A DNA stretch of 64,000 bases from Cytophagaceae bacterium. GTDB lineage: Bacteria > Bacteroidota > Bacteroidia > Cytophagales > Spirosomataceae. A model generated the notes under the pieces. It worked only from the letters and a program-made list of their open reading frames with translations, searched no databases and was not told the origin of the DNA. The stretch covers positions 62,001 through 126,000 of the forward strand of contig JAIXOL010000053.1 of the NCBI GenBank assembly GCA_027486845.1, in the 5' to 3' direction. The position numbers and the translations under genes are program-made. Below, one piece after another: positions 414 to 12,994 of this stretch (positions are counted from its first letter, which is position 1; every line of letters starts with the position of its first letter).

Positions 414-484
414 GTGTGAAACATGTAACATCTGTTTAGAATTATATAATACTTCTGAAGTTAAAAAAGTACACCTTTATACTT
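414..484 (+). promoter_or_regulatory. Shared-architecture promoter of the copper-protein operon
   Basis: GTGTGAA at 414-420, TTATATAATACTTC at 442-455 and CACCTTTAT at 472-480, with the first base of GTGTGAA exactly 58 nt before the first base of CACCTTT. The same three blocks with the same spacing occur at 4610 and 7286. CACCTTTA resembles the Bacteroidota -7 element TAnnTTTG with its first base changed, which puts the transcript start near 484 and leaves a leader of about 29 nt before the ATG at 513. Regulator unknown. Confidence 0.6.
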
Positions 485-512
485 TGAAAAATATTAAACT
501 AAAACTGACAAA

Positions 513-839
513 ATGATTCCTGAAAAATATAAAGTTTGTATTGATGCTTGTGCCGATTGCATAGTTGCTTGCAAAGATGCTGCCACCGAAAACCTTAAAG
601 AAGACGATATTGAAATGATGTCTCGCACCATAAAATTAGGTCATGATTGTGCCGCTGTATGTATTTTAGCGATGCAATCAATGGCATCTAATAGCGAGTT
701 GGTGGGTCAAATTTGCAAATTATGTATGGAAGTCTGTAATATCTGTGCCGAGGCGTGTGAAGAATATGTTTATATGGTTCAATGCAAAATATGTGCTGAG
801 GCTTGTCGAAAATGTGCCATTGAATGTGCAAAAATTTGA
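513..839 (+). CDS. Four-helix bundle copper-binding protein (DUF326/Csp type)
   Basis: A 108-residue protein with 16 cysteines in CxxxC and CxxC spacing along four predicted helices, for example CIDACADCIVAC at the N-terminus, HDCAAVC in helix 2, CKLCMEVCNICAEAC in helix 3 and CKICAEACRKCAIEC in helix 4. This is the pattern of DUF326 and the Csp copper-storage proteins, which hold many Cu(I) ions through thiols lining the core of the bundle. There is no signal peptide, so a cytosolic Csp3-like form is expected. It is the first gene after the stress-type promoter at 414 and is probably co-transcribed with the Lys-rich peptide and GH130/GT4 genes that follow closely. Confidence 0.85.
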   Translation: MIPEKYKVCIDACADCIVACKDAATENLKEDDIEMMSRTIKLGHDCAAVCILAMQSMASNSELVGQICKLCMEVCNICAEACEEYVYMVQCKICAEACRKCAIECAKI

Positions 840-865
840 TTTTTTACAATTAAATACTTATCCCA

Positions 866-988
866 ATGTCGAACGATAAAGATACTAAAGACAAATCAGG
901 CAAGAAAGCCCCTGCTAAAAGTCTAAAGGAAAAACGAAATGCCAAAGCAGCCAAACGTAATGAAAAAGGTAGTCCGAGTATAACTTAA
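866..988 (+). CDS. Small Lys-rich cytoplasmic peptide (40 aa)
   Basis: ATG at 866 to TAA at 988 encodes 40 residues, about one third of them Lys or Arg, with an Ala/Lys/Gly-rich middle and no hydrophobic segment. Very small basic proteins of this composition are common next to stress genes in Bacteroidota. It lies 26 nt after the copper protein and 37 nt before the GH130 start, which suggests one transcript. Nucleic-acid binding is only a guess from composition. Confidence 0.55.
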   Translation: MSNDKDTKDKSGKKAPAKSLKEKRNAKAAKRNEKGSPSIT

Positions 989-1025
989 TACTTCATAAAA
1001 TAAATTGGGGTTTAATCCAAAAGCT

Positions 1026-2066
1026 ATGATACAAGTAAAGAAAGAAGGGATTTTGCTGGAAAAAACTACACAAAGTTTTGAGGAGATGGGAGTTTTAAAT
1101 CCTGCGGTTATAAAAGAAGGTGAATTTGTTCATGTGTTTTATAGAGCAGTGAGCAATGGCAACTTTTCAACTATAGGATACTGCAAACTCAGTGGGCCTT
1201 CAAAGGTGGTCGAACGCTTCGCTGAACCACTCATTTTAGTAGAATTTGATTACGAATCTCACGGCATTGAAGATCCCCGAATCGTTAAGATAGATGATTT
1301 ATATTATCTTACTTATACAGCCTACGATGGCGTTAATGCACTCGGAGCTTTAGCTACTTCAACTGATTTGAAACATTGGAAAAAACATGGTTTACTTGTG
1401 CCAAAAATAACTTTCGATGAGTTTAATTACATGGCGAAGTTTAAAACTAAGCTCAATGAAAAATATTTCAGATATAACGAACACGACCATATTTTGAAGA
1501 AAAATGGCAAAGAAATGTTTCTTTGGGACAAAAACGTAATTCTTTTCCCCAAAAAAATTAAAGGAAAACTTTATTTCTTACATCGTATAAAACCTGATAT
1601 TCAAATTGTTGTAGGCATCGAAAAACTGGAAGAATTGACCGACAATTTTTGGCAAAAATACTTTCTAAATTTCGATAAAAATATAGTTCTTGCTCCAAAA
1701 TACGATCACGAGGTGAGTTATGTTGGCGGCGGCTGTCCACCAATCGAGACTGACAAAGGTTGGTTGGTCATTTATCATGGAGTTAGAGATTCTATCAAAG
1801 GCTATGTCTATTCTGCTTGTGCGGCATTGCTTGATTTAGATAATCCACAAAATGAAATTGCCCGATTGCCATATCCATTATTTGAACCCGAAAAAACTTG
1901 GGAGCTGAAAGGTGAAGTAAACAATGTTTGTTTCCCAACAGGTACGGCTTTGTTTGATGATACACTTTATATTTATTATGGAGCGGCTGACGAAAGAATT
2001 GCTTACGCTTCAGTAAGTTTATCGGCTCTTTTGCTTGAATTAACACTAAATCCCTCAAAAAAATGA
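1026..2066 (+). CDS. GH130-family glycoside phosphorylase (mannoside phosphorylase-like)
   Basis: About 346 residues in a five-bladed propeller pattern. GH130 hallmarks are the opening NPAVI block, GIEDPRI with the conserved Asp thought to act as proton donor, a HRIKPDIQ block, the glycine-rich VGGGCPPIETDKGW strand, and the final blade with YYGAADERIAYA. GH130 enzymes cleave beta-mannosides with phosphate (or, in some subgroups, by hydrolysis), giving mannose-1-phosphate. No signal peptide, so it acts in the cytoplasm. The ATG at 1026 is preferred over an upstream in-frame TTG at 1005 because family members start a few residues before the first strand. Its stop overlaps the next gene's ATG by 4 bp, so this enzyme and the glycosyltransferase are translationally coupled. 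Exact substrate cannot be read from sequence. Confidence 0.85.
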   Translation: MIQVKKEGILLEKTTQSFEEMGVLNPAVIKEGEFVHVFYRAVSNGNFSTIGYCKLSGPSKVVERFAEPLILVEFDYESHGIEDPRIVKIDDLYYLTYTAYDGVNALGALATSTDLKHWKKHGLLVPKITFDEFNYMAKFKTKLNEKYFRYNEHDHILKKNGKEMFLWDKNVILFPKKIKGKLYFLHRIKPDIQIVVGIEKLEELTDNFWQKYFLNFDKNIVLAPKYDHEVSYVGGGCPPIETDKGWLVIYHGVRDSIKGYVYSACAALLDLDNPQNEIARLPYPLFEPEKTWELKGEVNNVCFPTGTALFDDTLYIYYGAADERIAYASVSLSALLLELTLNPSKK

Positions 2067-4435
2067 ACGATGAAAACTCACATGGTCGTATCAATGTTTT
2101 GCCTTTGAAAACAAAAAAATGTAATGATGGAAGCCAAACAAATAAGTTGGATACTAGGAGTCCACTACCCGAAATTTTATTTATTACTTCATTCCCTCCT
2201 CGTGAATGTGGTATAGCCACCTATTCGCAAGATTTAATCAAGGCTCTTAAAAATAAATTTAATCACTCCTTTAAAATCAGTATTTGCCCTTTAGAATCAG
2301 ACAGCGAAAAACATATTTATCAAGAGCCCATTAGATATGTGTTAAATGCTGATGTTTCGACTGATTTTATAAACCTTGCCGAAACTATCAATCTTGATGA
2401 AAATATTAAAATGGTGATGATTCAGCATGAATTTGGGCTTTTTAAAAAAAACTTTTATTTCGAACATTTCCTAAAACTAGTCATTAAACCTGTCATAATT
2501 GCCTTCCATACTGTTTTACCTAAACCTAACGAAGTACTTAAAACTTCGGTTAGAAATATTGTAAACTTATGTGAATCGGTTATAGTAATGACCAATACTT
2601 CAGCAAAAATTCTGACTGAGGATTACGAAGTATCTGCCGAACAAATAAGTGTAATTCCTCACGGTACACATCTAGTATCTCATTCTGACAAAAGTTCCTT
2701 AAAAACAAAATATAGCGTTTCCGGTCGAAGAGTACTTTCTACTTTCGGCTTATTGAGTTCTGGGAAAAGTATCGAAACAACATTAGATTCTATGCCCGAA
2801 ATCATTAAAAATAATGATGACGTGCTATTTTTGATTATAGGAAAAACGCATCCTTCGGTTGTGAAAGAAGATGGTGAAAAATACCGTATTTTTCTTGAAA
2901 ATAAGGTCGAGGCTTTGCAACTAAAAAATCATGTTAGGTTTATCAATCATTACTTAACTTTGCCAGATTTGCTTGAGTATTTACAATTAACCGATATTTA
3001 TTTGTTTACCTCAAAAGACCCTCATCAGGCTGTAAGTGGCACATTTTCGTATGCAATTAGTTGCGGTTGTCCGATAATTTCTACGCCAATTCCGCATGCT
3101 CGTGAGGTTTTAAAAAATGGTGAAGGAATTATAGTTGATTTCGAAAATTCGACTCAATTATCTGCGGCGGTTATTGACTTGTTGGCTGACGAAACTTTAT
3201 TAAAAGATATCAGTTCAAATGGCTTGCATAGCATGGCACCCACCGCTTGGGAAAATGCCGCTATTGCTCATGCTCTTTTGTTTGAAAATATCGGAGAAGG
3301 GCAAATTCGATTAAATTATAAAATACCAGCAATCAATCTTGATTATGTAAAAAAACTGACGACTCACTTCGGTATGATTCAGTTTTCAATTATTAATAAA
3401 CCTGATATAGATTCAGGTTATACACTCGATGACAACGCTCGGGCAATGGTTTCGATGTGTCAACATTATGAACTAACTCAAGAAAATACCGACTTAGAAT
3501 ATATTGGTATTTACCTCAATTTTATCAAATATTGCTTACAAGAAGATGGAAGTTTCTTGAATTATGTGGATGAAGACGGGATTTTTACGCAGCAAAACTA
3601 CGAAACAAACCTCGCCGACTCAAATGGTCGAGCGATTTGGGCTTTAGGATATTTGATTTCATTGAGTGATTCGTTGCCAAATGAGTTGGTTTTTGAGGCA
3701 GGGAAAATTATTGATTGTGCCATGCCCAATTTGCTCAAAACACATTCTACAAGAGCCATGGCCTTTATAATCAAGGGTTTGTATTATCGAAGTAGCAAGC
3801 AACATTCGGTGCAAGATATGCTCTTTATCACTCGACTGAGTAATCGATTAGTGCAAATGTACAAGCACGAAGCCGAACCTGATTGGTCTTGGTTTGAAAG
3901 TTACTTGACTTATGGAAACAGTATTTTGCCCGAAGCAATGCTTTGTGCGTGGCTGGCAACTGGCGAGACAATATATAAACAAATCGCCAAGACTTCTTTT
4001 GATTTTCTATTAACAAAAATTTTCACCGAAAAGAATATTAAAGTGATTTCAAACAAAGGTTGGCTGCACAAAGGAGAGGAAGAAAATCGGGTAAATTTAG
4101 GTGGCGAACAACCTATTGATATTACTTATACTATTTTGGCTTTGCATAAATTTTATGCAGTTTACATGGATGAAAGCTATAAAATCAAAACTAAAATCGC
4201 CTTTGATTGGTTTTTAGGTAATAATCACCTGCATCAAATTATTTATAATCCATGTACAGGCGGTTGCTATGATGGTTTAGAAGAAAATTACATCAATCTT
4301 AATCAGGGAGCTGAATCTACCGTAAGTTATTTAATGGCTAGACTAACCCTCGAAAAAGCTTCGAGGGGCATTCAAAAAATAGAAAGCACTAAAAAAAATA
4401 ATTTAAAATTCAATCGCCAAATCCATTTAGTATAA
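2063..4435 (+). CDS. GT4-type glycosyltransferase fused to a helical (alpha/alpha toroid-like) domain
   Basis: 790 residues. The N-terminal 400 or so form a GT-B glycosyltransferase of family 4: an opening strand with FPPRECGIATYS, a second-domain start FGLLSSGKSIETTL, and the donor-binding region DPHQAVSGTFSYAISCG followed by STPIPHAREVL and a Gly-rich EGIIV end. GT4 enzymes transfer sugar from a nucleotide sugar with retention. The C-terminal 350 residues have repeated helical hairpins with a DDNARAMVSM block, NLADSNGRAIWALGY, and WFESYLTYGNSILPEAML, resembling the six-hairpin toroid of glycoside hydrolases and epimerases. The gene overlaps GH130 by 4 bp (ATGA). Together they may make and recycle a mannose-containing glycan in response to stress; that role is inference. 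Confidence 0.75.
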   Translation: MNDENSHGRINVLPLKTKKCNDGSQTNKLDTRSPLPEILFITSFPPRECGIATYSQDLIKALKNKFNHSFKISICPLESDSEKHIYQEPIRYVLNADVSTDFINLAETINLDENIKMVMIQHEFGLFKKNFYFEHFLKLVIKPVIIAFHTVLPKPNEVLKTSVRNIVNLCESVIVMTNTSAKILTEDYEVSAEQISVIPHGTHLVSHSDKSSLKTKYSVSGRRVLSTFGLLSSGKSIETTLDSMPEIIKNNDDVLFLIIGKTHPSVVKEDGEKYRIFLENKVEALQLKNHVRFINHYLTLPDLLEYLQLTDIYLFTSKDPHQAVSGTFSYAISCGCPIISTPIPHAREVLKNGEGIIVDFENSTQLSAAVIDLLADETLLKDISSNGLHSMAPTAWENAAIAHALLFENIGEGQIRLNYKIPAINLDYVKKLTTHFGMIQFSIINKPDIDSGYTLDDNARAMVSMCQHYELTQENTDLEYIGIYLNFIKYCLQEDGSFLNYVDEDGIFTQQNYETNLADSNGRAIWALGYLISLSDSLPNELVFEAGKIIDCAMPNLLKTHSTRAMAFIIKGLYYRSSKQHSVQDMLFITRLSNRLVQMYKHEAEPDWSWFESYLTYGNSILPEAMLCAWLATGETIYKQIAKTSFDFLLTKIFTEKNIKVISNKGWLHKGEEENRVNLGGEQPIDITYTILALHKFYAVYMDESYKIKTKIAFDWFLGNNHLHQIIYNPCTGGCYDGLEENYINLNQGAESTVSYLMARLTLEKASRGIQKIESTKKNNLKFNRQIHLV

Positions 4436-4467
4436 ATTGGATTTAAGTAATAAAAAAAATACTCAAC

Positions 4468-4550
4468 AAATTTGCAAAACAGCTAAATGTCTGTCTATAA
4501 GATTTTTATCTTAATTTGGACTTGTCGACTATTGACAGTAGATTACTTTT
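4468..4550. repeat. Copy A of a ~80-bp intergenic element (copy B at 11777)
   Basis: This stretch aligns in the same orientation with 11777-11853. Shared blocks in order are AAATTTG, CTGTCTAT, CTTAA, ACTT-nn-CGACTATTGAC and TACTT. It lies in the gap between the glycosyltransferase stop and the promoter at 4610. The reverse strand of copy B is directly upstream of a Cys-rich gene, so a regulatory role is possible. Confidence 0.5.
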
Positions 4551-4609
4551 GTTTCTATCTGATAGTCAAATTAGTCAATGATGAAAAGTGTCAAGTTTTC
4601 AAAGCAAAT

Positions 4610-4680
4610 GTGTGAATCTTGTAATTTTTTTCAAATATTATGTAACATATCTAAATCTAAAAATACGCACCTTTGTAAGG
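4610..4680 (+). promoter_or_regulatory. Shared-architecture stress promoter, second copy
   Basis: GTGTGAATC at 4610-4618, TTATGTAACATATC at 4638-4651 and CACCTTTGTA at 4668-4677, again exactly 58 nt from GTGTGAA to CACCTTT. The predicted start near 4680 leads into a short GTG-started reading frame and then the lipoprotein gene at 4806. Together with the copies at 414 and 7286 it defines a small regulon. Confidence 0.65.
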
Positions 4681-4696
4681 TAAAACAAGCCAAATA

Positions 4697-4783
4697 GTGA
4701 AAACATTATTAGTAGAACACCTCGATTATATCATCATTCTATTTGTTTTTGTAAGTATTGTATTCTTGAACGCTTGCTCATAA
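4697..4783 (+). CDS. Possible 28-aa hydrophobic peptide ending in a lipobox
   Basis: GTG at 4697, about 17 nt after the predicted transcript start, to TAA at 4783. The peptide has an acidic/polar start, then a long hydrophobic run (IIILFVFVSIVFL) and ends NACS. LNAC is a usable lipobox, but it is the last thing in the peptide. No ATG lies between the promoter and the next gene, so this could be a tiny membrane peptide, a translated leader or chance. Low confidence. Confidence 0.25.
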   Translation: MKTLLVEHLDYIIILFVFVSIVFLNACS

Positions 4784-4805
4784 TTCACAAATAAAAAATT
4801 AAACC

Positions 4806-5258
4806 ATGAAAAATAATATGGCTATGTCCACACAACTCAATAAAGTCCATTTGGGATTTCTTATGCTTATTATTGCATTTTCGCTATCAGCATGCACAAA
4901 GAAAATCGCTTTTCTTACATCATCAGTAGTACCAGCTGCCCGAGGCTATGTTTACATTAAAACCGATAAAAATAAGAATAATGTAATTGATGTTCACCTC
5001 ACAGAGTTGGCAGAAGTACAAAGATTGCAACCAGCCCGACAAACATACGTAGTTTGGATGCTAACTGACCATGATATTACAAAAAATATCGGCCAAATTA
5101 AAAGTTCAACAGGTATGATGTCTAAGCAATTAAAGGCATCTTTCGAGACTGTTTCTTCATTTAAGCCTGTGAAAATATTTATCACTGCCGAAGATAATGC
5201 AGATATTCAGTACCCAGGAAGTCAGATAGTCTTAGAAACTGATAAGTTTTATAGATAA
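4806..5258 (+). CDS. Lipoprotein of unknown function (RskA-C-like)
   Basis: 150 residues with a hydrophobic segment (LGFLMLIIAFSLSAC) ending in a lipobox with Cys30, so it should be anchored to a membrane facing the periplasm. The mature part is a single all-beta-looking domain: an N-terminal strand pair with RGYVYIKTDKN, then YVVWMLTDHD, a Gly/Ser loop, and a final block with KIFITAEDNAD and YPGSQIVLET. The order (a YxxW strand, then a late strand of the form ITxE, then PG near the end) recalls the C-terminal domain of RskA-type anti-sigma factors, but the similarity is weak. It is the first full gene behind the promoter at 4610. Methionines at 4818 and 4824 are alternative starts. Confidence 0.6.
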   Translation: MKNNMAMSTQLNKVHLGFLMLIIAFSLSACTKKIAFLTSSVVPAARGYVYIKTDKNKNNVIDVHLTELAEVQRLQPARQTYVVWMLTDHDITKNIGQIKSSTGMMSKQLKASFETVSSFKPVKIFITAEDNADIQYPGSQIVLETDKFYR

Positions 5259-5553
5259 ACAGTTTCAAGGATAAAAAAGCACCTTTTATAGTAATTAACT
5301 TGATTGGTAGTTTTTCTTAAACTATTCCAAAAAAAGTCCGAATAAATCTCATTTGTAAGTACTCCACGCATTTCGGGGGAATATTATTAGTTGTCTCGCA
5401 ATGAAGGAATGCTGACCAAAAAGCAAAGTTAAGACTTAAGGAATTTTGAAAGCAACACCCCGAACATGGTCAACAGCAAAAAGAGATTAAAATGCCAAAT
5501 TAAAACAATAAATCATCAAAAAAGCGTTATTATTGATGCTTTTCTTAAAGATA

Positions 5554-5580
5554 CATTATCAGCGTAAACATCTGATAATG
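5554..5580. promoter_or_regulatory. Perfect 9-bp inverted repeat upstream of the lmo0937-type gene
   Basis: CATTATCAG, a 9-nt spacer, then CTGATAATG. It ends 40 bp before the ATG at 5621. The 18-bp centre-to-centre spacing of the arms suits a dimeric regulator, and no T-run follows, so an operator is more likely than a terminator. The rest of the 5259-5620 gap shows no convincing gene. Confidence 0.45.
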
Positions 5581-5620
5581 AGTTACTAAAGACACATAAC
5601 TTTATAAAAAAACAAAAATC

Positions 5621-5779
5621 ATGAGCAATCTTCTTTATATCGTCGCCGTTATTTTAATTATATTTTGGGCAATTGGTTTCTTTGCTTATGGTGTTGGGGC
5701 AATCATTCATGTATTGTTGGTGATAGCGGTTATTTCCATTCTTTTGAGAGTTATTCAGGGCGATCGAATCATTAAGTAA
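5621..5779 (+). CDS. lmo0937-family small membrane protein (52 aa)
   Basis: ATG at 5621 to TAA at 5779 encodes 52 residues: MSNLLYIVAVILIIFWAIGF, then a Gly/Ala turn, a second hydrophobic helix and a short charged tail RVIQGDRIIK. Two closely packed transmembrane helices with this start and tail are the signature of the lmo0937 family, tiny inner-membrane proteins commonly found with YtxH, CsbD and other general-stress genes. It is followed 88 nt later by a YtxH gene, which fits that association. No biochemical function is known for the family. Confidence 0.75.
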   Translation: MSNLLYIVAVILIIFWAIGFFAYGVGAIIHVLLVIAVISILLRVIQGDRIIK

Positions 5780-5867
5780 AAAAACAATGTAGAATACCTT
5801 CAATAGATATAAGTAGGTGTGAAACGCTTAATCAGATTTAGTAAATAATCATTCAAAAAACACAAAA

Positions 5868-6182
5868 ATGAAATCAGGAAAAGTGTTGTTAGGCATATTA
5901 GCAGGTGTTGCCGCTGGAGCAGTGGTCGGAATTTTGTACGCACCTGAAAAAGGTTCAAGAACCCGTAGAAAAATTATGGATAAGAGCGATGACTATGCCG
6001 ACGGTCTTAAAGACAAATTCGATGAATTCGTCGATTCTTTAAACAAAAAATATCAAAGCACCGTGCATGATGTCGAAAACATTGTGTCAAAAGGAAAGTC
6101 TAAATACGAAAGTGCAATGTTGGAAGTAAATGAATTGGTTGCGAAAGACAAATCAAAGTTTGATGGAGTAATCAAAGATTAA
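5868..6182 (+). CDS. YtxH-domain protein
   Basis: 104 residues. The first 30 form one Gly/Ala-rich membrane helix with LLGILAGVAAGAVVGILYAP followed at once by EKGSRTRRKI; this short helix with APxxGxxxR is the YtxH domain. The remainder is a charged amphipathic helix with Lys/Asp repeats, likely coiled coil. YtxH proteins belong to general-stress regulons; their biochemical role is unknown. It heads the cluster ytxH, holin-X-like gene and partner gene, an arrangement common in Bacteroidota. Confidence 0.8.
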   Translation: MKSGKVLLGILAGVAAGAVVGILYAPEKGSRTRRKIMDKSDDYADGLKDKFDEFVDSLNKKYQSTVHDVENIVSKGKSKYESAMLEVNELVAKDKSKFDGVIKD

Positions 6183-6206
6183 ATGCACAAGCAATACAGT
6201 AAAATT

Positions 6207-6234
6207 CTCATGGTATGGATTTCTATACCATGAG
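6207..6234 (+). other. Perfect 10-bp mRNA hairpin between ytxH and the holin-X-like gene
   Basis: CTCATGGTAT, 8-nt loop, ATACCATGAG, ending 21 nt before the next ATG at 6256. There is no T-run, so it is not a standard terminator. It could protect the ytxH message or control translation of the next gene. Confidence 0.45.
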
Positions 6235-6255
6235 TCCTTCAAAACACTGCCAAAT

Positions 6256-6609
6256 ATGAAAAACTACGAAGTTCACATCGAATCGCTTTTTGGAAAAGCA
6301 GAAGATTTTACCAAAACAACCTTAGAACTTTTGAAACTAAAAGCCATTGACTCATCGGCTGATTTTGTCTCATTTTTAGTGGTAAAACTTGTACTTTTTT
6401 CGTTTATTTGTCTTTTTATAATCATCGCTAATATAGGTGTTGCTTTATGGATTGGTGATTTACTTGGTAAATCTTATTATGGCTTTTTTTTATTAGCGGC
6501 TTGCTATGCTTTAATTTTATCTTTGCTTCCTTCCTATTTGTATCAATGGGTAAAAGTGCCAATCAGTAATTTTATTATTGCCCAATTGCTTAAAAAATCA
6601 AGCTCATGA
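6256..6609 (+). CDS. Holin-X-like (phage holin family) inner-membrane protein
   Basis: 117 residues: an N-terminal amphipathic helix (KTTLELLKLKAIDSSADF), then two long hydrophobic helices, VVKLVLFSFICLFIIIANIG with VALWIGDLLG, and YYGFFLLAACYALILSLLP, then a short basic tail. This is the layout of the Holin-X/DUF1469 group, which despite the name is chromosomal and usually sits between a YtxH gene and a small soluble protein gene. It likely works at the inner membrane under stress. Its last four bases (ATGA) overlap the next start. Confidence 0.7.
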   Translation: MKNYEVHIESLFGKAEDFTKTTLELLKLKAIDSSADFVSFLVVKLVLFSFICLFIIIANIGVALWIGDLLGKSYYGFFLLAACYALILSLLPSYLYQWVKVPISNFIIAQLLKKSSS

Positions 6610-6998
6610 CCGATAATTCTTTACTTTTAAAAGAAAGAATCTCTTTCTTAGCAGACCGTCAAAGTCAACAAATTGTCTTGCTAAAGGAGCAAGTTCACAT
6701 TACTTTTGAAAGTCTAAAGCCAATTAATTTCCTAAAAGATACCATAATAGATTTTACCTCTCAATCTGATTTAAAAGAGAATATTTTTGATGGAATTGCT
6801 GGTGTAACAACTGGTTTCTTATCAAAAAAACTCATAGTCGGCACCACAAACAGTCCTGTCAAAAAACTCGCGGGAACGCTTCTTCAAGTCGGTATTACTG
6901 CACTTGTAACAAAAAATTCAAGCAAAATTAAGGCAATTGGTGAAGTATTTTGGAAGCATCTTTTTAATCGTGAAACTGCGATTAATGCCCAAGAATGA
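6606..6998 (+). CDS. Conserved partner of YtxH/holin-X (unknown function)
   Basis: 130 residues starting at the ATGA overlap with the upstream gene, so the two are translationally coupled. A charged N-terminal helix (residues 5-40) is followed by an amphipathic stretch with GIAGVTTGFLSKKLIVG and a weakly hydrophobic segment LAGTLLQVGITALVTKNSSK. Peripheral or single-pass membrane association is likely. A third small protein in this position is usual in ytxH/holin-X clusters, but I know no function for it. Confidence 0.6.
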   Translation: MTDNSLLLKERISFLADRQSQQIVLLKEQVHITFESLKPINFLKDTIIDFTSQSDLKENIFDGIAGVTTGFLSKKLIVGTTNSPVKKLAGTLLQVGITALVTKNSSKIKAIGEVFWKHLFNRETAINAQE

Positions 6999-7161
6999 TT
7001 TGTTTGTCTTTAATTTAAAGTAATCAAGCAACATTCGACACAGACAAAAATCTACATTTAAGCCAACGATAGGATTAATTAATCCATAAATCAATTGCTC
7101 CAAACGCACCTGGGTTTTTAATTAAATTTGTAGGTTTATAAGTACAAAAAGGCACTCTAAG

Positions 7162-7266
7162 TATGAGACAATATAAATCGACAAACTGATATGATGTAAC
7201 CTGTCGATTTTAGCATTTTGTTGCTCTAGCGAATAGTCTCGAATCTCAGCGGCGAACCGTCTCATA
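7162..7266. repeat. Nested inverted repeats in the gap before the CsbD operon
   Basis: Outer arms TATGAGAC (7162-7169) and GTCTCATA (7259-7266); inner arms AATCGACA (7176-7183) and TGTCGATT (7202-7209). The 3' part includes GGCGAACCGTC (7251-7261), also found in the 36-bp repeats at 12754. The remaining sequence of the 6999-7386 gap holds only the promoter described next. Confidence 0.45.
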
Positions 7267-7285
7267 TCTTTTGTCTGACTTAAAT

Positions 7286-7356
7286 GTGTGAATCATATAA
7301 ATTATTTGAAATATTTTATAACACTTCTTGATGCAAGAAACCTCACCTTTGTAGAG
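7286..7356 (+). promoter_or_regulatory. Shared-architecture stress promoter, third copy, for the CsbD operon
   Basis: GTGTGAATC at 7286-7294, TTTTATAACACTTC at 7314-7327, CACCTTTGTA at 7344-7353; GTGTGAA to CACCTTT is again exactly 58 nt. The predicted transcript start near 7356 gives a leader of about 30 nt before the CsbD ATG at 7387. Confidence 0.65.
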
Positions 7357-7386: not shown

Positions 7387-7575
7387 ATGACAAATCTAAC
7401 ACAATTAAAAGGAAATTGGAATGCCACCAAAGGCAAACTAAAGCAACAATTTGCGATGCTTACCGACGATGATTTATTGCTGGTAGAAGGAAAGCAAGAT
7501 GAAATGCTTGGTCGTCTTCAAACCAAACTTGGCAAGACAAAGGAGGAACTGCAGACGCTCATAACTAGTCTTTAA
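7387..7575 (+). CDS. CsbD-family stress protein
   Basis: 62 residues. [18 protein letters not shown], then a Leu/Asp turn, then [21 protein letters not shown] matches the CsbD signature almost completely. CsbD proteins are small, highly charged, mostly helical proteins induced by general stress; they have no known enzyme activity. The start at 7387 is chosen over the in-frame GTG at 7363 because family members begin two or three residues before xLKGNWN and because 7363 lies only a few bases after the predicted transcript start. First gene of an operon running to the terminator at 9334. Confidence 0.9.
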
Positions 7576-7621: not shown

Positions 7622-8056
7622 ATGAAAAAATCAATCTTAGTGACCACTCTTTTTGTTTCTGCATTAATTGTTGGTGCTTGTAGTTCGCCTACCAAAAAGG
7701 TAGAAGATGCAAAAACCGATGTTGTGGAAGCCAACAAAGAATTGGTTGATGCACAAGCAGAGTATATGGCTGATATGGCAAAATATAAGACTGAGACAGC
7801 CGAAAAAATAGCCGCAAATGAACTAATTATAAAAGATTTCAATGCCCGAATTGCCAGTCAGAAAAAAGATGCTCAGGTAGAATACAAGCAAAAAGTAGCT
7901 TCTCTAGAGCAAAAAAATACTGATATGAAAAAGAAAATTGATGATTATAAATTGGATGGAAAAGAAAATTGGGAAAAATTCAAAACTGAATTTAATCACG
8001 ATATGGACGAACTCGGTGAGGCATTTAAAGACTTAACGGTTAAAAATGTAAAATAA
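7622..8056 (+). CDS. Coiled-coil lipoprotein
   Basis: 144 residues. A short signal sequence ends in a lipobox (LIVGAC) with Cys20. The mature chain is almost entirely helical with heptad-like Lys/Glu/Asp/Gln patterning from about residue 30 to 135, so a long periplasmic coiled coil is expected. It lies 46 nt after csbD in the same operon, which points to an envelope-stress role. Coiled-coil lipoproteins of this sort can tether the outer membrane, but nothing in the sequence shows that directly. Confidence 0.65.
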   Translation: MKKSILVTTLFVSALIVGACSSPTKKVEDAKTDVVEANKELVDAQAEYMADMAKYKTETAEKIAANELIIKDFNARIASQKKDAQVEYKQKVASLEQKNTDMKKKIDDYKLDGKENWEKFKTEFNHDMDELGEAFKDLTVKNVK

Positions 8057-8116: not shown

Positions 8117-8755
8117 ATGAGAAAGTTACTTTTAATTTTAACTCTTGCTATTATCGGCATCAACCTTTGCCAAGCACAAGTATCAGATGATTCACGCAAA
8201 AAGTTTCAATTTGGACTAAAAATTGGTTCAAATTATTCAAATATTTATGATTCTAATGGCGAAAATTTTGAAGCTGAAGGGAAGTTTGGCTTAGCCGGTG
8301 GCGTTTTTATGGCAATTCCAATCGGTAAATTTTTGGGTGTTCAACCCGAAGTACTGTTTTCACAGAAAGGCTATAAACAAACAGGTACTTTTTTAGGAAG
8401 TACTTATGATTTGACTCGTACTACCGACTATATAGATATTCCATTGTTACTTTCTATCAAACCTGTCAATTTTTTGACTATTCAACTTGGACCACAATTC
8501 TCTTTTTTGACAAAACAAAAAGATGTTTTCAAAAATGCTCTTGCAACCGTAGAGCAGCAAGACGAATTTAAGAATACTAACATTCGTAAAAACATATTGT
8601 GTGCCGTTGGTGGTATTGACATCAATATAAAACGTATAGTAATTGGTGCTAGAGCAGGTTGGGATATTCAAAATAATAATGGTGACGGCACATCGACCAA
8701 TCCTCGCTACAAGAACGCTTGGGTACAAGCAACTTTAGGATTCAGAATTTTATAA
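8117..8755 (+). CDS. Outer-membrane beta-barrel protein (OMP_b-brl_2 type)
   Basis: 212 residues with a signal peptide ending near CQAQ. Then FQFGLKIGSNYSNIYDS, GLAGGVFMAIPIGKFLGVQPEVLFSQKG, DYIDIPLLL and KPVNFLTIQLGPQFSFL are alternating amphipathic strands typical of the small porin-like barrels of Bacteroidota (PF13568). The final strand (WVQATLGFRIL) ends in a hydrophobic residue, as needed for barrel assembly. Third gene of the CsbD operon, so probably made under stress. Ligand unknown. Confidence 0.8.
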   Translation: MRKLLLILTLAIIGINLCQAQVSDDSRKKFQFGLKIGSNYSNIYDSNGENFEAEGKFGLAGGVFMAIPIGKFLGVQPEVLFSQKGYKQTGTFLGSTYDLTRTTDYIDIPLLLSIKPVNFLTIQLGPQFSFLTKQKDVFKNALATVEQQDEFKNTNIRKNILCAVGGIDINIKRIVIGARAGWDIQNNNGDGTSTNPRYKNAWVQATLGFRIL

Positions 8756-12717: not shown

Positions 12718-12826
12718 GGCAAACCATCGCTCCGATTGTTATTTTAAATCAGAGGCGAACCGTCGCTCCGATTGTTATTTTAAATCAGAGGCGAACCGTC
12801 GCTCCGATTGTTATCTTATAATCAAA
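12718..12826. repeat. Three tandem copies of a 36-bp hairpin repeat
   Basis: Units start at 12718, 12754 and 12790. Each includes GGCGAACCGTCGCTCCGATT and, with the preceding AATCAGA, folds as AATCAGAGGCGA / TCGCTCCGATT with a 4-nt ACCG loop, one mismatch and one bulge. The third unit changes at its end into the 21-bp array that follows, so the two repeat types are joined. Confidence 0.8.
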
Positions 12827-12994
12827 GTGTGTTATCTTATAATCAAGGTGTATTATCTTATAATCAAGGTGTGTTATCTTATAATCAAGGTGTATTATCT
12901 TATAATCAAGGTTTGTTATCTTATAATCAAGGTGTGTTATCTTATAATCAGGGTGTGTTATCTTATAATCAGAGTGTTTTATAAGATAATCAGA
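12811..12994. repeat. Eight-copy 21-bp tandem array with an inverted terminal copy
   Basis: TTATCTTATAATCA recurs at 12811, 12832, 12853, 12874, 12895, 12916, 12937 and 12958, exactly 21 bp apart, with GTGTG or GTGTA between. The last unit (about 12980-12992) has TTATAAGATAATCA, in which the 11-bp core is the reverse complement of TTATCTTATAA. The 21-bp period is two turns of B-DNA. It is open in one plus frame as a 7-residue repeat, but that frame has no proper start or codon use. Confidence 0.85.

Follow-up and report, generated by a model that had tools for sequence, protein, structure and literature searches.

Three operons at the start of a 64,000-nucleotide (nt) stretch of the genome of a Cytophagaceae bacterium (contig JAIXOL010000053.1, positions 62,001 to 126,000; hereafter the window, or C3:62001-126000 in the 5,360,263-base genome analysed, G000) share a promoter in which the blocks GTGTGAA and CACCTTTRTA start 58 nt apart. 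The sequence-only reading of the window had proposed that these operons belong to the regulon of an alternative sigma factor, or of an activator, with a defined site upstream. Our analyses support the activator half of that proposal and not the sigma half. Sequence comparisons suggest that this promoter serves a stress regulon under a conserved AraC-type activator, often autoregulated, which would act by class II activation of sigma-A RNA polymerase, a reading to which we assign a probability of roughly 0.83.

The repeated promoter would combine the binding site and the core promoter of a small AraC-family activator of 186 amino acids (aa), in which an HMA-like beta-alpha-beta-beta-alpha-beta domain precedes an AraC double helix-turn-helix. 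Probably as a dimer, this protein would bind tandem half-sites 21 bp apart; the published position of the sigma-A box (PMC9723704) places them, by prediction, at -70 to -56 and -43 to -32. The downstream half-site would stand in for an absent -33 TTG, and the activator bound there would contact sigma-A RNA polymerase positioned on the -7 box CACCTTTG. The protein would turn on its own gene and/or the adjacent gene, together with stress operons, which in this Emticicia-like genome lie in one block of ~52 kb. The stress signal that we infer might arrive through a PAS histidine kinase and a receiver protein encoded between two AraC genes, or through an invariant cysteine, Cys13. The role in stress is itself read from the names of the genes.

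The spaced promoter and its gene block

GTGTGAA lies at window positions 414, 4610 and 7286 and CACCTTTRTA at 472, 4668 and 7344, each pair 58 nt apart and with a middle block at +28 in all three promoters, exactly as first described. Alone, each block occurs in the window near chance frequency (GTGTGAA, 9 seen and 7.8 expected; CACCTTTRTA with one mismatch, 14 and 9.4). The genome-wide scan proposed with the first description found GTGTGAA-N49..53-CACCTTTRTA at these three places only. With up to two mismatches the spaced pair occurs at 12 places in the genome, eight of which have the middle block in register, all on the + strand of C3 between 23,263 and 69,286; the other four lack an in-register middle block. 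The reversed pattern matched nowhere in the genome in either scan. Across 150 genomes of the family, a search in which the gap could vary from 46 to 56 nt listed 20 places in 13 genomes. Eighteen of them, including the three in the window, carry the full motif, without exception at the 58-nt spacing; the remaining two look like chance, and the reversed pattern matched two genomes.

A weight matrix trained on 23 sites (eight from this genome, 15 from relatives in the family) was run over both strands of the first 126 kb of C3. It returned 15 sites between C3:18993 and C3:69286, all on the + strand, with scores of 16.8-78.4, the next best match scoring -10.2; eight of the 15 had been in the training set and seven had not. 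A -7 box is present in 13: eleven have it at offset 62, one of them as TTCG, and two at offset 61. Two weak sites (34255 and 49821) lack it. In 10 of the 13 boxed sites an ATG follows 89-112 nt past the site start. The spacing is thus real, as claimed, but not strictly invariant, since a shift of 1 nt is tolerated, and the original count of three shared promoters, each of them genuine, was too low for a genome with 13-15. A strict 36-base pattern allowing one mismatch gives 14 sites genome-wide, of which C3 has 12 and contigs C22 and C48 a single one apiece. The site on C22 (C22:69908; L145:1509) is outside the block and has no clear gene close downstream.

These sites define a block at C3:18993-71280 (~52 kb), the last fifth of which is inside the window. 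A simple method called 66 open reading frames (ORFs) in it, 62 on the + strand, and 59 of the 66 were scanned with Pfam, a scope that applies to all domain counts for the block below. At its head stand, in order, genes for a cupin protein, an AraC protein, a PAS hybrid histidine kinase, a receiver protein and a second AraC protein. Further genes encode an alcohol dehydrogenase, a DnaJ C-terminal domain, DUF326 and Csp1-like Cys-rich proteins, an FMN reductase, a Dps/ferritin-like protein, SOUL, rubrerythrin, L,D-transpeptidases, a cation P-type ATPase, a pyridoxamine-oxidase-like protein, lipocalin, fasciclin, BON, YceI, two Usp proteins, Mla components, GH130, a glycosyltransferase, YtxH and CsbD. 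The SOUL haem-binding protein is split across two neighbouring ORFs in different frames (C3:38268-38866; L031:18268-18866), which would reflect either a disrupted gene or an assembly error. Among 11 genomes of the genus, motif and close AraC protein are jointly present in five and jointly absent from six, so the block seems to be accessory within the genus.

The promoters and genes of the window are as follows.

414..428, +, upstream half-site GTGTGAAACATGTAA (pattern and matrix; predicted -70 to -56)
441..452, +, promoter-proximal half-site ATTATATAATAC (matrix and repeat analysis; predicted -43 to -32)
472..479, +, putative sigma-A -7 box variant CACCTTTA (predicted -12 to -5; box as defined in PMC9723704)
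513..839, +, Cys-rich four-helix copper-storage (Csp1-like) protein, first gene (NCBIfam TIGR04401 2.3e-10, below the family cut-off; no Pfam family)
1026..2066, +, GH130 mannooligosaccharide phosphorylase-like protein (Pfam PF04041)
2063..4435, +, glycosyltransferase group 1 (Pfam PF00534)
4610..4624, +, upstream half-site GTGTGAATCTTGTAA (pattern and matrix)
4637..4648, +, promoter-proximal half-site ATTATGTAACAT (matrix and repeat analysis)
4668..4675, +, putative -7 box variant CACCTTTG (pattern)
4806..5258, +, small lipoprotein-like protein (no Pfam or NCBIfam family)
5621..5779, +, lmo0937-family small membrane protein (NCBIfam NF033488 4.6e-16, above cut-off)
5868..6182, +, YtxH-like protein (Pfam PF12732 3.5e-19)
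7286..7300, +, upstream half-site GTGTGAATCATATAA (pattern and matrix)
7313..7324, +, promoter-proximal half-site ATTTTATAACAC (matrix and repeat analysis)
7344..7351, +, putative -7 box variant CACCTTTG (pattern)
7387..7575, +, CsbD-like stress protein (Pfam PF05532 1.7e-14)
7622..8056, +, sll1863-family stress-response protein, lipoprotein-like (NCBIfam NF052504, above cut-off; no Pfam family)
8117..8755, +, outer-membrane beta-barrel protein (Pfam PF13568)

A GTG-started ORF of 28 aa at window positions 4697-4783 (+), ending in the lipobox-like LNACS, begins 87 nt after the 4610 site. This is close to the usual start distance of first genes, and the ORF may be the gene with which that operon really begins. 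Shortly past the end of the stress block, window positions 12718-12982 hold a 36-bp tandem repeat (2.9 copies) and a 21-bp one (8.3 copies of TGTTATCTTATAATCAAGGTG); the 21-bp unit has ATTAT and AACAC in common with the motif and scores far below the sites.

Site architecture and the candidate regulator

Aligned sites read GTGTGAATNATRTAA-N12-RTTATRTAACAC, followed by CACCTTTG. Compared with itself, the motif matrix has a direct repeat at a shift of 21 (score 0.33, the next being -0.35), the sole positive value among the shifts listed, and GTGTGAATNATRTAA and RTTATRTAACAC are therefore putative tandem half-sites 21 bp apart. A palindromic operator of the CRP/FNR kind was also considered and rejected, as all palindrome scores listed are negative (best -0.12).

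According to PMC9723704, the sigma-A -7 box of Flavobacterium psychrophilum, TAnnTTTG, spans -12 to -5, and CACCTTTG agrees with the box given there except at the first base. If CACCTTTG occupies the same positions, the half-sites span -70 to -56 and -43 to -32, and the proximal one would cover the -33 region. The arrangement is that of a class II-type tandem site, with a direct repeat of 21, a proximal copy (offsets 27-38) over -35/-33 and a box at offsets 58-65. Among 181 sites from the 80 regulator loci described below, TTTG begins at offset 62 in 117 and at 61 in 23 and is rare elsewhere; the second base of the box is A in 160, and the first is C in 91 and T in 29. With C more frequent than T at the first base, CACCTTTRTA is most readily understood as a variant form of the usual sigma-A -7 box. 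In 83 of 159 site-gene pairs the first downstream ORF begins 20-39 nt past offset 72.

The first description placed the regulator outside the window, and rightly so: two candidate AraC regulators are encoded 39-43 kb upstream on the same contig. Both are 186-aa proteins with Pfam HTH_18/HTH_AraC matches at residues ~97-174 (HTH_18 at 4.5e-16 and 1.6e-15), and they have the C-terminal AraC double helix-turn-helix that marks the AraC/XylS family (Pfam; Foldseek matches to AraC, MarA and SoxS domains). Neither reached an NCBIfam cut-off, one having been queried without its last 14 residues. An AlphaFold2 model of the Emticicia aquatica protein, built from an alignment of 50, has a predicted local distance difference test score of 87.8 and a predicted template-modelling score of 0.74. 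Its C-terminal half matches AraC-type domains in Foldseek (best 6swi, 5.3e-5; also 7w5w, SoxS, and 1bl0, MarA). Residues 2-62 are modelled as strand-helix-strand-strand-helix-strand, and residues 1-62 weakly match metallochaperones (E 0.09-0.14; template-modelling, or TM, score by target 0.58-0.69), with the designed binder 9dia scoring slightly above them. A Pfam search of both AraC proteins gave no HMA match. The CxxC metal-ligand motif of such chaperones is not intact, as the block subfamily reads MVSxRC, with Ser10 and Cys13 invariant in the 50 aligned sequences; a third AraC paralogue of this genome (on C68, 48% identical) has MVCDRC. The literature searched, in which subscription journals are largely missing, held no description naming the regulon or the regulator.

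Association of the motif with the AraC family across genomes

Genome contigs were scanned with one of the 186-aa AraC proteins, and the best 80 of 562 relatives were used as regulator loci; these come from Emticicia aquatica (83% identical), from Arcicella, Flavobacterium, Dyadobacter, Prolixibacteraceae and others (64-78%) and from one Melioribacteraceae record. At a score of 0, the activator half of the matrix gives 224 matches in 75 of the 80 loci, compared with 5 for the reversed matrix and 2, 5 and 6 for permuted ones; at a score of 20 there are 137 matches in 48 loci and none in the controls. A site lies at most 400 nt upstream of the regulator gene in 24 loci (74-119 nt in 21 of these) and at -2 to +99 nt from the regulator coding end in another 26. 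Eighteen of these 26 begin in the last codon of the regulator, 17 of them with the stop TGA inside the motif, and the site at C3:23263 likewise contains the TGA stop of its regulator gene. The overlap falls at the same position in all 17 loci (L034-L038 and 12 others), which is unusual for its conservation.

As these 80 loci were picked by their AraC gene, they test the link only around such genes, and co-occurrence was measured in samples chosen independently of AraC: the 150 family genomes and 296 genomes of the phylum. A close AraC was taken as E<=1e-60 in the family, and as at least 64% identical and full-length in the phylum. In the family, 30 genomes have the motif, 45 a close AraC and 26 both, so that the motif is found in 26 of 45 genomes with a close AraC versus 4 of 105 without (Fisher p 3.7e-13), the reversed pattern matching none of the 150. 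Within the genus the figures are 5 of 5 versus 0 of 6, and in the phylum 11 of 21 versus 7 of 275 (p 2.8e-10), with the reversed pattern in 2 of 296. Nine family genomes have a single detected site, and in seven it is at the AraC gene end (G051, G058, G091, G100, G116, G125 and G134); G061 has its single site and no close AraC, and the place in G142 is not among the rows listed. The geometry is kept across the phylum while the spacer sequence changes, which bears out the earlier view that the spacing is selected rather than copied.

Two site classes, GTGAATNA and GTGATNTA, track two groups of AraC proteins, distinguished by Glu or Gln at residue 120. By residue and class, adjacent sites number E/AT 29, E/T 1, Q/T 16, Q/AT 1, Q/other 2 and A/AT 1; with three of the 50 loci excluded (two of class 'other', one with residue A), 45 of 47 fall on the diagonal (Fisher 1.9e-10).

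Several observations weigh against an AraC activator acting through this site. The correlation of clade and motif amounts to only 3-4 changes on the tree, and an independent-pairs test is not significant; given this phylogenetic confounding, we take it to show no more than that clade and motif have diverged together, and not as replicated covariation. A matrix built from 16 Q-type sites matches Q loci (95 matches in 37 of 38; reversed 4) and E-type loci alike (127 matches in 37 of 41), which establishes presence and not specificity. No strict site was found in 19 of the 45 family and 10 of the 21 phylum genomes with a close AraC. The strict pattern overlooks variant sites, and seven phylum genomes of one family (f23) with 64-67% identical AraC proteins have no strict match. 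Conversely, a close AraC is absent from 4 of 30 family genomes with the motif (G061, G088, G117 and G122) and from 7 of 18 in the phylum; G340 carries two sites, each close to a contig end, but gave no AraC match at E 1e-20. Finally, co-inheritance of the whole block would likewise yield co-occurrence.

A census of first genes gave 159 site-gene pairs with 158 different genes, or 133 after exclusion of 23 AraC genes and two very long ORFs; by Pfam they include Ice_binding 18, CsbD 12, receiver 8, cupin 8, OmpA 6, BON 4 and DUF5670 4. With families defined by regular expressions and a site required 60-400 nt upstream (baseline 131 of 1254 ORFs of at least 100 aa), an upstream site precedes 8 of 11 CsbD-like ORFs (p 2e-6), 4 of 6 BON ORFs and 4 of 11 lmo0937 ORFs (p 0.02); the value for cupins, 2 of 4, is not significant (p 0.058), and the universal-stress expression gave no row in this test. 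Ice-binding-like proteins (PF11999) are the commonest first-gene family (18 of 133; L034-L113), and this hints at cold or freezing as one trigger of the regulon.

Alternative regulators, related systems and implications

The strongest competitor to an AraC activator is some other regulator, such as an unseen response regulator into which a PAS kinase relay feeds, with the AraC genes as mere targets. The hybrid PAS kinase and receiver protein do sit between the AraC genes, receiver proteins recur among the targets, and regulators of the LytTR type also use direct repeats about 21 bp apart. However, an output domain was looked for in the block receiver protein and none was seen, the two AraC proteins carry the only DNA-binding domains found among 59 of the 66 block ORFs, most single-site genomes retain the site exactly at the AraC gene, and the motif variant tracks the AraC clade. 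We therefore regard this alternative as unlikely.

Less probable still is a regulon of an alternative sigma factor, such as one of extracytoplasmic function (ECF), for which GTGTGAA or the middle block would be the upstream element and CACCTTTRTA the -10. Fixed spacing and a set of stress genes would suit such a factor, as would the prevalence of C over T at the first base of the box, and AAC, as in the middle block, resembles ECF -35 elements. Yet two 21-bp direct repeats reaching -70 would exceed a sigma footprint, and no sigma-factor domain was found among 59 of the 66 block ORFs, sigma genes elsewhere in the genome not having been searched. The box also retains the A..TTTG of the sigma-A box as defined in PMC9723704. 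An origin of the repeats by copying of mobile or duplicated DNA, which their confinement to one strand and one region might suggest, can be practically dismissed, because only the blocks are shared, flanks and spacers differ, and the same geometry recurs across the phylum with other spacers.

An AraC activator on these promoters would have recognizable relatives. In Escherichia coli, where AraC acts on araBAD by class II activation, araI1-I2 is a 21-bp direct repeat that overlaps the -35. PMC4760080 describes araI1-araI2 as two proximal operators at araBAD, with binding at araI2 recruiting RNA polymerase. E. coli AraC shares with the present proteins the C-terminal helix-turn-helix domain and two proximal sites. 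Unlike it, the 186-aa proteins have an HMA-like N-terminal domain of about 62 residues in place of a sugar-binding domain, and the promoters differ from araBAD in having a Bacteroidota -7 box and in tying numerous stress operons, rather than a single sugar operon, to one family of regulators. SoxS, MarA and Rob, which in E. coli govern a multi-operon stress regulon and bind as monomers, have the same type of DNA-binding domain (fold matches 7w5w and 1bl0); the present site, by contrast, consists of two tandem halves, and the 186-aa proteins carry one domain more. CsbD, YtxH, Dps-like ferritin and Usp are gene types shared with Sigma-B and RpoS regulons, and a paper on the Bacillus subtilis SigB regulon reportedly names csbD and ytxH once each (PMC7824861); in contrast to those systems, control here appears to be by an AraC activator of sigma-A promoters, with no alternative sigma encoded among the block ORFs scanned. 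The weak fold similarity of residues 1-62 is to the HMA metallochaperones GolB, HAH1 and TTHA1718, from which the block AraC subfamily differs in reading MVSxRC at the CxxC.

Bacteroidota are not known to have RpoS or sigma-B. A broader proposal, which we hold tentatively and consider somewhat likelier to be wrong than right, is that the AraC/HMA-fold protein governs the general stress response throughout the phylum as its master activator, filling on sigma-A promoters the role that RpoS, sigma-B and EcfG have in other bacteria, with a sensor domain derived from a metallochaperone that has lost one metal-binding cysteine. The findings bear on how Bacteroidota coordinate a general stress response. 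A predicted regulator, an exact predicted operator, a promoter geometry and a list of targets make the regulon directly testable, and the motif allows it to be read from genome sequence alone, uncultured members of the phylum included.

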